Shown here piece after piece: positions 31,739-37,246 of a DNA stretch of 64,000 nt. Source of the DNA: Phycisphaerales bacterium. Lineage in GTDB: Bacteria; Planctomycetota; Phycisphaerae; Phycisphaerales; SM1A02. Location: positions 83,300-147,299 of the forward strand of contig JAJDDB010000006.1 in NCBI GenBank assembly GCA_029260575.1, written 5' to 3'. The notes beneath the pieces were generated by a model, which saw only the letters and a program-made list of their open reading frames with translations, did no database searches and was not told the DNA's origin. Position 1 is the first letter of the stretch; every line of letters begins with the position of its first letter. The position numbers and the translations under genes are program-made.

Positions 31739-33178
31739 TCAACCAAGAATTGATCGCCGATTCACGACCGAATCATAGGCTTTCACAATCGACACGCCGG
31801 GGTAATACCAGCGAAGAATGTCGAGATACCCCCTGCCGTCCTTCGCCAGAGCTTGAGCGCCGTACTGGCATAATCCCACGCCATGACCAAAACCCCTGCC
31901 TTGAAACGTCGCGACACCACTCTTGATAGTGACATCTACATGTGACGACGGAAGGGAGCGCCCGTAGTCATCCAGGTCAGTAGCGCGGTGATTCGCAGCA
32001 TAGCGCAGCCGCTGCGCGGAGAGCGCAACCGTGAGTTCGTTCGTGTCTGTGAGCGTGTATTGCGTCGGCCGACCTGTTGGACCTGTCCCTGAAGGTTGTA
32101 TCGAACGCAGTGTGTGCAATTTTGCAACCGTCTGAATGTGTTGTGATTCGCCGAACGCTGCGATGCGCCGACTCAACACCGAAAGGTCTCGCTCGATCGT
32201 CCATCGATACACCGGCGACTCGGTGCACACATCAGTGCCGATGCGCCCCGCCAGGGGTGGCAACGCATTAGCGGGGTTGGAACCCATGACGAGGTTTGCC
32301 GATGCGGCCGTGCCGCCACAGCAACTGCTGTAGTACCCCGGAACGAGCAGCTTTTCAGCTCCAAGTACTAATCCCGCGGTGTCGCGCACCGCGCGTCGTG
32401 CTGCTTCGAGATTCACTGCTCCGACATATGCCTGCGAATGCACAGTGTCAGTAACATCGTAATGCCTGCGTTCTCTGTTGTGCAGGTGTTCGTAACAGGC
32501 GAAGCTGCGTGCTGCGACAGCTTGTGCTGCAAACGTGGCCTGTTCCCAGTGGCTGAACAGTTCCCGCGCCAACACGCCGGGGAGATATTGCTCCATCGGC
32601 AATTCGTTGATGATGTCGAACGCGTGTTCGTCAAGGTCGGACCGATCCGCCAGGCGCAAAAGGCCGCTGTACTGCCGTTGGTTGAGCGCAACGGTGTTCT
32701 CTTCAATACCCAGCGGCTGAATCAGAAGCATCCGCGCACCGAAGACGCGCTGGGTGCCGGTTGATTCATCGCTCACGCGCCATTGATCGCCATGCCGGGT
32801 GGCGCGAATGACGCCGCGCATCACAAGCCCCCTGCCGGTGGCATCGTCAAAAGTCACGCGCATCCACTGATCTGCGAGGCCAAGTTGCACTGCAGCATCT
32901 GCGCCGCGGACTCGCTGCAAACGCACTCGAATTGTCGGCTCAGAGTCAGGCGGGGCGAACAGTGAATCGTCGGTTTTCACTTCAGGAGGCGTCGGCCTTG
33001 CTGCGTGCTCTTGGTCGCTGTCTTCACGACTGCAACGACATGCGGGCACGAGAACTCCAGCGGCAGCGCACGCAAGGGTCGCGCCGAGAAACCGCCTGCG
33101 CGATGTCTGCACGTTGCCTATATGATCAAAATGTGAATCACGATGTCCGATATGCGCATTATCGCCAGCCGAGCGCAT
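31739..33178 (-). CDS. SpoIID/LytB-domain protein with Tat signal
   Basis: The 479-residue product starts with a twin-arginine signal (SRRRFLGATLACAAAGVLVPAC), which also carries a lipobox-like PAC. The SpoIID domain covers about 150-470: INELPMEQYLPGVLARELFSHW, AQAVAARSFACYEH, YYSSCCGGTAA and the C-terminal GRGFGHGVGLCQYGAQALAKDGRGYLDIL. SpoIID is a lytic transglycosylase for peptidoglycan; the LPMEQYLPGVLARE block includes the conserved Glu. A start further downstream at the Tat signal is possible; no ribosome binding site was seen. It lies 40 bp upstream of the DinB-like gene on the same strand. Confidence 0.9.
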   Translation of the reverse strand: MRSAGDNAHIGHRDSHFDHIGNVQTSRRRFLGATLACAAAGVLVPACRCSREDSDQEHAARPTPPEVKTDDSLFAPPDSEPTIRVRLQRVRGADAAVQLGLADQWMRVTFDDATGRGLVMRGVIRATRHGDQWRVSDESTGTQRVFGARMLLIQPLGIEENTVALNQRQYSGLLRLADRSDLDEHAFDIINELPMEQYLPGVLARELFSHWEQATFAAQAVAARSFACYEHLHNRERRHYDVTDTVHSQAYVGAVNLEAARRAVRDTAGLVLGAEKLLVPGYYSSCCGGTAASANLVMGSNPANALPPLAGRIGTDVCTESPVYRWTIERDLSVLSRRIAAFGESQHIQTVAKLHTLRSIQPSGTGPTGRPTQYTLTDTNELTVALSAQRLRYAANHRATDLDDYGRSLPSSHVDVTIKSGVATFQGRGFGHGVGLCQYGAQALAKDGRGYLDILRWYYPGVSIVKAYDSVVNRRSILG

Positions 33179-33227: not shown

Positions 33228-34157
33228 TCAGTCGAGCGTACGGAGCGTCAGGTTGTAGTTCGTCATCTTTTCCCTGATCTCGACCAGGCTGGTGGCACCA
33301 AAATTCTTCACGCCCATGAGCTCTGCTTCCGTTCGCATCGCCAGATCGCCTAGCGTCTGAATATTCAGCAGCTGCAGCGCCTTTCGAGCACGAACAGAAA
33401 GATCGAGAACGGAGATCGGCTTGTTCAGCACCGACTCGGGCGCCTGCGCCTTCAGCTGATCGTAGATGTCGCTGCGCACGCGGTTGTACTGACCTTCAAC
33501 ACCCTGGCCAAGCCGTAAACCCTTCTGGGCCAGCATGCTCTTGATTTCAATTAAGGATGTCTCGCCGAAGTTCTTGTAGCTGAGCAACTCCGCTTCTGTG
33601 ACCTTCAGGAGATCGCCGAGCGTACGAATCTGCATCTTCTTCAGGCAGTTTCGCGCGCGGACTGAAAGCTCGAAGTCCGTCACCGGCGTGTCCATAAGCG
33701 CATTGCGCTTTGCCATATCGCGTGCGTGCTCTTCGTCGTAGTACATGTCCCGCGATGCCTGGACGTCCTTCATGAACAGCCGCGCTCTGGCGTTGTTCGG
33801 GTTGGTGTCCAGCACCTGACGCAGACACTTTTCTGCCTGGGCAACATCGCCGCGATCTTCGTACATCACCGCAAGATTCAGAAGCACGTTGACATGCGGT
33901 TGTTCCTGCCGGGCAAGATGTTCGTAAATTGCCAGCGATTCACTTTCCTCGCCGCCGAGATCCAATTCGTATGCAAGCCGAAACTGGTATTTCGGATCGT
34001 TGTCGAATTGTGCGGCCTTGCGCAATTCATCGATTGCGACATCACGCTGGCCGTCTCCGACAGCCTGCAGCGCTGTCTGAAAATGAATCTTTGCTGCTGC
34101 GGGATCAGCTGCCTGACTTGACGAGCCGATCATGGTGTCCAGAACATCGTGCGCCAC
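33228..34157 (-). CDS. TPR protein with two RNA polymerase alpha C-terminal domains
   Basis: The 309-residue product starts at a GTG with GGAG 8 bases upstream. Residues about 18-135 form three to four TPR-like helical repeats (AIDELRKAAQFDND, LAIYEHLARQEQPHVNVLLNLAVMY, AEKCLRQVLDTNPNNARARL). Two alphaCTD modules follow: about 155-218 (FELSVRARNCLKKMQIRTLGDLL, YKNFGETSLIEIK) and about 246-305 (LDLSVRARKALQLLNIQTLGDLA, VKNFGATSLVEIR). Both keep the Arg of the DNA-contacting VRxxN helix; the Lys pair before the Ser in E. coli alpha (GKKS) is GETS and GATS here. It is not RpoA itself, since the N-terminal domain is absent. A role bridging promoters and another partner is inferred. Confidence 0.85.
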   Translation of the reverse strand: MAHDVLDTMIGSSSQAADPAAAKIHFQTALQAVGDGQRDVAIDELRKAAQFDNDPKYQFRLAYELDLGGEESESLAIYEHLARQEQPHVNVLLNLAVMYEDRGDVAQAEKCLRQVLDTNPNNARARLFMKDVQASRDMYYDEEHARDMAKRNALMDTPVTDFELSVRARNCLKKMQIRTLGDLLKVTEAELLSYKNFGETSLIEIKSMLAQKGLRLGQGVEGQYNRVRSDIYDQLKAQAPESVLNKPISVLDLSVRARKALQLLNIQTLGDLAMRTEAELMGVKNFGATSLVEIREKMTNYNLTLRTLD

Positions 34158-34282
34158 GTGCGAATCTCCGTTGCCGTCAATTGTGAATTTGTGCCCCTGC
34201 CTGCTGGAGCGAACGGGTCATCGTACCGCTCCACCATCGTTCGGACAACAACGGCGGTCACCCGCTCGGCTGGCCGAACCGG

Positions 34283-35957: not shown

Positions 35958-36185
35958 TCAGGCCAGAGCAGGCTTGGTACTGAACCATCGGCTCTGGATG
36001 GCCTTTACGGACAATGCCTGATATACAGCGGAGAGGCCGACGAGCACGTACACCATCCGAGCGAGGATTGCGGTTTCTCCACCGAAGATCGTTGCGACCA
36101 GATCAAACTGGAATGCTCCGACGAGTCCCCAGTTCAGGCCGCCAACGACTAGAAGTACTGCTGCGAGAATATCTAAGACTTTCAT
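35958..36185 (-). CDS. DUF378 small membrane protein
   Basis: The 75-residue product has two membrane segments (DILAAVLLVVGGLNWGLVGAF and MVYVLVGLSAVYQAL) with the characteristic GGLNWGLVG motif of the DUF378 family. Function of the family is unknown. AGGAGT 6 bases before ATG at 36185 sets the start. It lies between the fasciclin gene and the SDR gene, on the same strand. Confidence 0.92.
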   Translation of the reverse strand: MKVLDILAAVLLVVGGLNWGLVGAFQFDLVATIFGGETAILARMVYVLVGLSAVYQALSVKAIQSRWFSTKPALA

Positions 36186-36277
36186 TGCGAACTCCTTTGC
36201 GGCAGTGTGCCGCTTCATGTCACATTCGAGAGAACCGGAAGGGCTCGACGGGCCTAGAAAAGGAGGCCAGGGACAGA

Positions 36278-37246
36278 TTACGGAAAAAGCACGGTGTCAA
36301 TGACATGCACAACACCGTTGGAAGCATTGATGTCGGTGCTCATCACCTTGGCACCATTGACGTTTAGGCGACCGTTGCGAATATCGAAGAACAGCGCGTT
36401 GCCCTGCAGCGAGTCAACGGAGCCAGCTTTGATCGCATCATCTGCAAATGCACGACCGGGAATCACGTGATACTTCAACACAGCGACGAGCTTGTGGCGA
36501 TTCTCCGGCTTGAGCAGTGATTCCACAGTGCCAGCAGGCAGCTTGTTGAATGCAGCATCGGTCGGAGCCAGCACTGTCAGCGGCTTGTCGCCGGTGAGCG
36601 CGGGAACGAGACCTGCAGCCTTAGCAGCTGCGATCAACGTGTTGAACTGACCGGCGCTCTTCGCAACGTCAACGATGTTGTTCGATGATGGCAGGAGGAC
36701 ACTATCAATGACGTGGATGACGCCGTTGCTGGCTTCGATGTTCGCCTTGGCAACCGTAGCGCCATCGATCATGACATTGGAGCCGTTTGTTTCGAACGTG
36801 ATCCGCTGACCGTTGAGTGTCTTGATTCCGCCCAGGCGGGTGACTTCGTCAGCAGTCCATTCGCCAGCCACGACGTGGTACTTCAGGATCGCTGCCAGTG
36901 TGTCGCGATTCTCCGGCTTGAGCAATGTTTCGAGCGTGCCCTTGGGCAGCTTTGCGAATGCCGCATCGGTCGGCGCGAAGACTGTAAACGGCCCGTCGCC
37001 GGACAACGCCTTATCAAGGCCGGTTTTCTGCAACGCGGTGGCAAGCGTCTTGAACGAGCCAGCGTTGACCGCTGTCTCCACAATGTTCATGTCCTTGTTG
37101 TACGAGGCAAGCTGTGCGGGGCGGGGCGAGTCGGCCTGGTTAGAGGTTTCGCACTGTGCATCAGCGGGGCCGGCCAGGATGGCGGATGTGCCAACTGTGA
37201 CAGCAATGACTGCCAGACGATTTGCGTGTCGGTGGGATCGGAACAT
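36278..37246 (-). CDS. Secreted protein with two fasciclin (FAS1) domains
   Basis: The 322-residue product has a signal peptide (about 1-30, ending GPADA) and two FAS1 domains of about 130 residues each. Both carry FAPTDAAFAKLP / LAPTDAAFNKLP, LLKPENR and the YHV(V/I)x(G) motif, and each ends in G-V-[IV]-H-V-I-D-[ST]-V-L. The halves are clear internal duplicates. FAS1 proteins mediate adhesion or bind surfaces. AAGGAGA 6 bases before the ATG fixes the start. The promoter must lie in the divergent gap shared with the CarH-like regulator. Confidence 0.95.
   Translation of the reverse strand: MFRSHRHANRLAVIAVTVGTSAILAGPADAQCETSNQADSPRPAQLASYNKDMNIVETAVNAGSFKTLATALQKTGLDKALSGDGPFTVFAPTDAAFAKLPKGTLETLLKPENRDTLAAILKYHVVAGEWTADEVTRLGGIKTLNGQRITFETNGSNVMIDGATVAKANIEASNGVIHVIDSVLLPSSNNIVDVAKSAGQFNTLIAAAKAAGLVPALTGDKPLTVLAPTDAAFNKLPAGTVESLLKPENRHKLVAVLKYHVIPGRAFADDAIKAGSVDSLQGNALFFDIRNGRLNVNGAKVMSTDINASNGVVHVIDTVLFP

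Follow-up and report, generated by a model that had tools for sequence, protein, structure and literature searches.

A near-universal planctomycete protein joining TPRs to two RNA polymerase alphaCTDs is a putative trans-acting transcription factor

What are two C-terminal domains of the RNA polymerase alpha subunit (alphaCTDs), which on the polymerase bind DNA and activators, doing on a protein that is not alpha? The question is raised by an open reading frame of 309 aa (33228..34157, minus strand, stop codon included), which we aligned with its relatives, in a 64,000-nt stretch of Phycisphaerales DNA, hereafter the window. The frame begins with GTG, and a GGAG lying 8 nt before it (34166..34169, minus strand) reads as a probable Shine-Dalgarno element. 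A first-pass annotation had proposed that the product consists of N-terminal TPR-like repeats and two alphaCTDs and lacks the alpha N-terminal domain (alphaNTD). Pfam, structure prediction and a domain tree agree on the TPR and alphaCTD parts. RNA_pol_A_CTD (PF03118) matches twice (whole-protein E 4.8e-40; 135.6 bits against a gathering cut-off of 23.8), TPR_14, TPR_2 and TPR_19 all exceed their cut-offs and indicate about three TPRs, and phmmer finds a solved E. coli alphaCTD at 5.5e-14. A weak HHH_5 match in the second alphaCTD stays below its cut-off at 16.9 bits.

All parts of the protein lie on the minus strand. Pfam, the structural model and the alignment together place three TPRs and a capping helix at residues 19-136 (33750..34103). 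A linker (residues 131-156; 33690..33767) follows, in which D131, S135, M138, D141 and E142 are conserved, with a mean conservation of only 0.59 over residues 131-150. The first alphaCTD, D1, spans residues 158-217 (33507..33686) and keeps the equivalents of E. coli R265, N268, C269, G296, S299, E302, D259 and E261. After a poorly conserved linker (residues 219-245; 33423..33503; mean 0.30) comes D2, at residues 246-306 (33240..33422), which keeps R265, G296, S299 and E302 and has lysine for N268 and alanine for C269. No alphaNTD, the domain of alpha for dimerisation and core assembly, was found in the product, where the rpoA profile TIGR02027 matches only through its positions 214-297 and 224-296. 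A complete, normal rpoA lies on another contig of the same genome (TIGR02027 positions 2-297, 355.6 bits), and each of 30 rpoA loci encodes a single alphaCTD, which rules out a split or degenerate rpoA. We conclude that the protein is a TPR array with two genuine alphaCTDs and without an alphaNTD, as first proposed.

The whole protein was modelled with AF2 on a 62-row alignment (pLDDT 82.7). In the model, TPR-type helices at residues 19-136 lead by way of a linker helix to D1, which a loose linker joins to D2; since its pTM is 0.44, it does not fix how the domains lie relative to one another. Residues 15-140 superpose on TPR domains (VIA-align; Z 16.7, rmsd 1.9 over 126 residues), and TPR chains top the Foldseek listing for the whole model, with alphaCTD chains next. 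Among the latter are the Caulobacter alphaCTD-DNA entry 9zum and the E. coli alphaCTD 8y5t_A2 (rmsd 0.7 Å, TMt 0.95, 50% identity); the 8y5t_A2 match is presumably to D1, because D2 alone shows 37% identity to this chain. Folded alone, D2 reaches a pLDDT of 88.4, and all 50 rows listed for it by Foldseek are RNA polymerase or alphaCTD entries. The best alphaCTD rows superpose at 0.7-1.1 Å, some others at 2-3 Å or more, and identity to solved alphaCTDs is 48-50% in the isolated alphaCTD rows of the whole-protein model and 30-42% for D2. The comparison with E. coli alphaCTD thus returned solved alphaCTDs, with the whole model and with D2 alone, and rules out the doubt voiced with the original proposal, that the modules might be generic helix-hairpin-helix (HhH) folds and nothing more.

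The annotation was made from one stretch of DNA and could not see how widespread this architecture is. It proved near-universal among the 392 Planctomycetota genomes surveyed. A match at 1e-5 turns up in 388, the weak ones being for the most part the CTD of RpoA itself or other proteins with TPRs, and 368 have a strong relative (E 3.2e-36 or better; table counted by eye). A profile search of the 24 others, with eight places fetched, recovered fragments truncated where a contig ends in four (G143, G176, G223 and G091, whose copy is divided between two contigs) and left 19 of the 392 genomes with no trace of the gene. In the remaining genome, G008, a D2-like alphaCTD occupies an 89-aa frame near a contig end, preceded by an in-frame stop (L202, G008:C93); it may be a truncated or damaged copy, or else a short alphaCTD that stands by itself. 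Within a quality subset of 217 genomes (at least 90% complete, at most 5% contaminated), 214 carry a strong match; the other three are G143, with its cut copy, and G031 and G301, in which the profile search found none and rpoA is present. A profile run on 59 genomes matched 55 at 3.8e-63 or better, and judging by coordinates these are apparently the same draw as the rpoA sample, so that the run is not independent evidence.

The two-alphaCTD layout is equally constant. Among 130 family proteins (a set of all loci, with the window's own protein in it and with some genomes contributing by two routes), 129 show exactly two alphaCTDs, and the exception, L086, runs off a contig end. The 20 genomes sampled from families outside the window's own order carry longer forms, whose length counted from the earliest potential start is 401-584 aa, and in the three scanned by Pfam the TPR matches span a longer stretch. 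A contig scan with patterns from the window protein, whose reach is close relatives rather than wider phyla, kept 80 loci, by title 74 from Planctomycetota, one from Limnohabitans, one from Bacteroidia and four without a phylum. The metagenome-assembled genomes titled Limnohabitans and Bacteroidia (L075, L096) carry planctomycete-type copies; the title of L096 looks wrong, because its genome appears inside the window's phylum, and the L075 genome may be mislabelled or contaminated.

Presence throughout the phylum rules out a recent or chance fusion. An origin in phages or plasmids was likewise rejected: searches of 72,556 plasmid and 50,697 phage records gave no place covering 80% of the query, and none of 28 pattern matches in viral contigs was confirmed. 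We also discarded a role in defence: in PADLOC the alphaCTD part drew two PglW models and the protein one marginal match to PrimPol, and PHROGs gave nothing.

Do the two modules retain the surface with which alphaCTD contacts DNA? We counted residues, in E. coli alpha numbering, over distinct domains (30 RpoA, 109 D1 and 114 D2), the 30 rpoA loci (the genome's own, L116, and L139-L167) being the best-scoring ones of the 59 genomes. For the grouping of determinants around 261, 265, 273 and 287, and for the full list of alphaCTD contacts, we relied on what we take to be the accepted scheme. In one study, R265 and N268 make minor-groove and backbone contacts, and UP-element activation is lost in N268A/W (PMC11434276). 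R265 is invariant in all three sets (30/30, 109/109 and 114/114). N268 is asparagine in 28 RpoAs and in 103 D1 domains (threonine in six), whereas D2 has none among 114 (98 K, 14 R, 1 H, 1 S); C269 is kept in all 30 RpoAs and 99 D1 domains, whereas D2 has 99 alanines and 13 cysteines. G296, S299 and E302 are kept in 109, 102 and 109 of the D1 domains and in 112, 111 and 113 of the D2 domains. D1 thus keeps each of the six residues in 91-100% of its 109 domains, and D2 departs from the set at N268 and, mostly, at C269. D1 also retains the sigma-type pair, D259 (106/109) and E261 (100/109).

These counts divide what the annotation had said of the contact residues. Its claim that they are altered is borne out for D2 at N268 and C269 and is mostly wrong for D1. 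Its statement that both modules retain a VRxR helix start holds for V264-R265, whereas the second arginine, at 267, is a mark of the family and not of RpoA (107/109 D1, 112/114 D2, only 3/30 RpoA). The replacement of GKKS by GETS and GATS mixes a trait of the phylum with one of the family. Position 298 is threonine in all 30 planctomycete RpoAs (K298 in E. coli), in 79 D1 domains (14 Q, 8 S) and in 109 D2 domains; only position 297 departs from the phylum's own RpoA (25 K, 3 R, 2 E), being acidic in all 109 D1 domains (94 E, 15 D) and mostly alanine (54) or glutamine (32) in D2, with other residues in the rest. An acidic 297 should weaken the affinity of D1 for DNA, and T298 in every planctomycete RpoA sampled implies that the UP-element contact surface of the phylum's polymerase may itself be changed. 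Position 273 is methionine in 108/109 D1 and leucine in 110 D2, and RpoA usually has E, A or Q there; because M273 is unlike RpoA, this side of D1 is remodelled. At the K291 position, D1 has S, A, G or Q.

Conservation of whole faces was measured on 29 diverse full-length rows for D1 and D2 and 25 for the RpoA CTD, with permutation p values. The DNA-contact (265) face scores 0.98 in D1 against 0.79 for the rest of the domain (p 0.0009), and 0.87 against 0.66 in D2 (p 0.0015), the pattern also seen in the RpoA CTD (0.94 against 0.69); N294 and G296, which are counted in this face, may be kept for the fold. When the four faces of D1 are compared, the DNA-contact face is the highest at 0.97 (sigma-type 261 face 0.84, 287 face 0.70, 273 face 0.65). 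Mean net charge is +2.3 for D1, +0.8 for D2 and +0.1 for the RpoA CTD, a measure that does not decide DNA binding, since the DNA-binding CTD of E. coli has a charge of -1.

In a tree of 89 alphaCTDs over 62 columns (30 RpoA, 29 D1 and 29 D2 domains falling on their own sides), RpoA, D1 and D2 form three separate groups, and D1 and D2 do not group with the RpoA domains; with the bootstrap not yet settled, support is 100/97 for D1 and D2 together, 98/96 for D1 and 99/73 for D2. The simplest reading would be that a TPR protein acquired one alphaCTD, whose duplication preceded the divergence of the sampled lineages. D1 is strongly conserved. Across the 25 genomes that have both genes, pairwise identity averages 64.8% for D1, 55.7% for the RpoA NTD, 53.9% for the RpoA CTD, 49.1% for D2 and 38.5% for the TPR part. 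Of 300 genome pairs, 259 show higher identity in D1 than in the RpoA CTD and 270 higher identity in D1 than in the RpoA NTD, whereas D2 exceeds the RpoA CTD in only 89; because of their shared ancestry, the pairs are not independent tests. D2 is strongly degraded, with D1 intact, in some deep lineages (L200, L201) and sits on long branches in others (L129, L132); lineages with a degraded D2 offer a natural contrast for telling the roles of D1 and D2 apart.

With groove positions assigned by what we take to be standard TPR numbering, the groove of the last repeat, TPR3, is nearly invariant (N94 29/29, E100 29/29, D101 28/29) and scores 0.80 against 0.51 for other non-structural positions (p 0.003). 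TPR2 follows the same trend (0.61 against 0.43, p 0.019), and the TPR1 groove shows no excess conservation (0.39 against 0.44, p 0.75). This pattern in TPR3 and TPR2 suggests one conserved partner.

We asked what the neighbouring genes say. In the window, the next gene 49 nt downstream encodes a SpoIID-like protein with a Tat-type signal match below cut-off (31739..33178, minus strand, from Pfam and the ORF list). Upstream on the same strand, window positions 35958-37246 encode a protein with DUF378 and another with tandem fasciclin domains. A gene-order survey entered 38 loci, of which nine lost the anchor gene in ORF picking and 29 were counted, with neighbour clusters named from their scanned members. 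Same-strand downstream neighbours were SpoIID-like in 17, Tgt in eight, RuvA in seven, YajC in six and SecD in six, and SpoIID, Tgt or RuvA lies downstream in 25 of the 29. RuvA is at position +1, or at +2 in L132. The row of L129 reads TPR-alphaCTD, ruvA, ruvB, queH, spoIID, tgt, yajC, secD. What recurs beside the gene are genes for repair, tRNA modification and secretion, with no transcription genes among them; they mark an old housekeeping locus and name no function for the TPR-alphaCTD gene.

How does the protein compare with known systems? It shares with the polymerase alphaCTD (PF03118; solved in E. coli, Caulobacter and B. subtilis) the fold and, in D1, the 265-type DNA contacts, but here two modules stand in tandem on a TPR protein with no alphaNTD attached, positions 267, 273 and 297 are changed, and D2 lacks N268 and mostly C269. 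An alphaCTD module outside alpha is also found in three family models, each matched by our protein far below cut-off: BREX PglW (1391-position profile; 44 bits against 990, in the alphaCTD part only), PRK07758 (a short 'hypothetical protein' model; 42.5 against 115 bits) and PRK14906 (a beta' model with an alphaCTD-like end, presumably a beta'-alphaCTD fusion; 19.8 against 1437 bits), the best stretch of the last two being in the alphaCTD part. As far as these matches show, none has the TPR-D1-D2 layout. Within the phylum, alphaCTDs also occur on other non-alpha proteins, each examined in one genome. Large proteins in two separate planctomycete genomes combine Sigma70_r4 and a weaker HARE-HTH match with three alphaCTDs (L194:3174-5558, plus strand) or two (L195:3083-5140, plus strand), and a YhcG/DUF1016 PDDEXK nuclease ends in an alphaCTD (L197:2016-3353, minus strand). 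Unlike the TPR-D1-D2 protein, these three have no TPR match and, by eye, do not keep the D1-type contact residues. In a 113-aa protein (L196:2945-3283, minus strand), one alphaCTD is the sole Pfam match at E <= 0.001.

In Salmonella, the TPR chaperone SicA is reported to work together with InvF and with alpha (PMC10761746, PMC10977090); compared by description, this is a TPR protein working with an activator and polymerase alpha, but there TPR and alpha are separate proteins. Our literature search found no description of the TPR-D1-D2 protein: the main text of PMC10632474, as searched, has no match for TPR or tetratricopeptide, and the passages matched in PMC3444138 and PMC8567305 do not mention it. 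Those matched in PMC2613000 concern UP elements only, and the part seen of PMC8321222 has none on alphaCTD contact residues. AlphaCTDs on non-alpha proteins are already known from family models; of the TPR-D1-D2 protein as a core protein of the phylum, the search gave no account.

We favour, at roughly even odds (about 0.5), the reading that the protein is a core, usually single-copy, phylum-wide factor supplying alphaCTDs in trans. D1 would use R265, N268 and C269 to bind the minor groove of A/T-rich or promoter-upstream DNA, as RpoA's alphaCTD does, and its D259 and E261 equivalents may contact sigma region 4; D2 would make an altered contact with DNA or protein; and the TPR groove would hold a conserved partner, be it RNA polymerase itself, a sigma factor or some regulator. 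The protein might thereby tether its groove-bound partner to promoters, or compete with RpoA's CTDs for their sites. We count in favour the two alphaCTDs in 129 of 130 proteins, the D1 contacts, the conservation of the DNA face and the TPR3 groove, the constraint on D1 above that on the RpoA CTD, and the models. Against it we count the acidic 297, the remodelled 273, the changed K291 position, T298 in only 79 of 109 D1 domains, the losses and degradation of D2, the non-transcription neighbours and the TPR1 groove.

Several of these points would fit other roles. The alphaCTDs might dock NusA, sigma region 4 or activators instead of DNA, with the TPRs gathering further partners, so that the protein would be a protein-protein adaptor of the transcription machinery. 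D1 keeps D259 and E261 while 297 has become E/D and 273 methionine, D2 lacks N268 in all 114 domains and C269 in 101, the TPR3 groove is nearly invariant, and the Foldseek rows include alphaCTDs from NusA-containing and transcription-translation coupling entries; but it is the DNA-contact face that is the most conserved of D1's four, and we consider this role rather unlikely. The proximity of ruvA in seven of the 29 loci, with ruvB next in L129, evokes instead a factor of DNA metabolism or a general nucleic-acid binder, with the alphaCTDs serving as HhH-like DNA binders alongside RuvAB, or on RNA, outside transcription. RuvA itself has an HhH domain, and the sub-cut-off HHH_5 match in D2 would agree. 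However, queH, tgt, yajC and secD share the L129 cluster, so the linkage is not functionally specific, and the alphaCTD match is far better (135.6 against 16.9 bits), which makes such a role improbable in our view.

Contact surfaces kept without attachment to the polymerase could also suit a decoy or antagonist, which would limit alphaCTD-dependent activation by occupying UP elements, activators or sigma region 4, for example under a signal bound by the TPRs. Near-universal retention and conservation of D1 above RpoA's suggest more than an optional brake, and although no sequence feature separates a decoy from the trans-acting factor that we favour, we regard it as a long shot.

Transcription in Planctomycetota has, to our knowledge, hardly been studied. 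The near-universality of the TPR-D1-D2 protein and a constraint on D1 tighter than on the polymerase's own alphaCTD point to a transcription factor, basal or global, that serves the whole phylum and has gone unrecognised. For P. limnophila, a saturated transposon library and genetic tools are reported (PMC10632474), and they make the transcription-factor reading directly testable. More speculatively, and with considerable doubt on our part, the protein could be an auxiliary, near-stoichiometric component of the transcription machinery that defines the phylum, docked by its TPR groove and adding two alphaCTDs in trans to RNA polymerase. If that were true, promoter-upstream recognition in planctomycetes would be unlike the E. 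coli model and would depend on a protein outside the enzyme.
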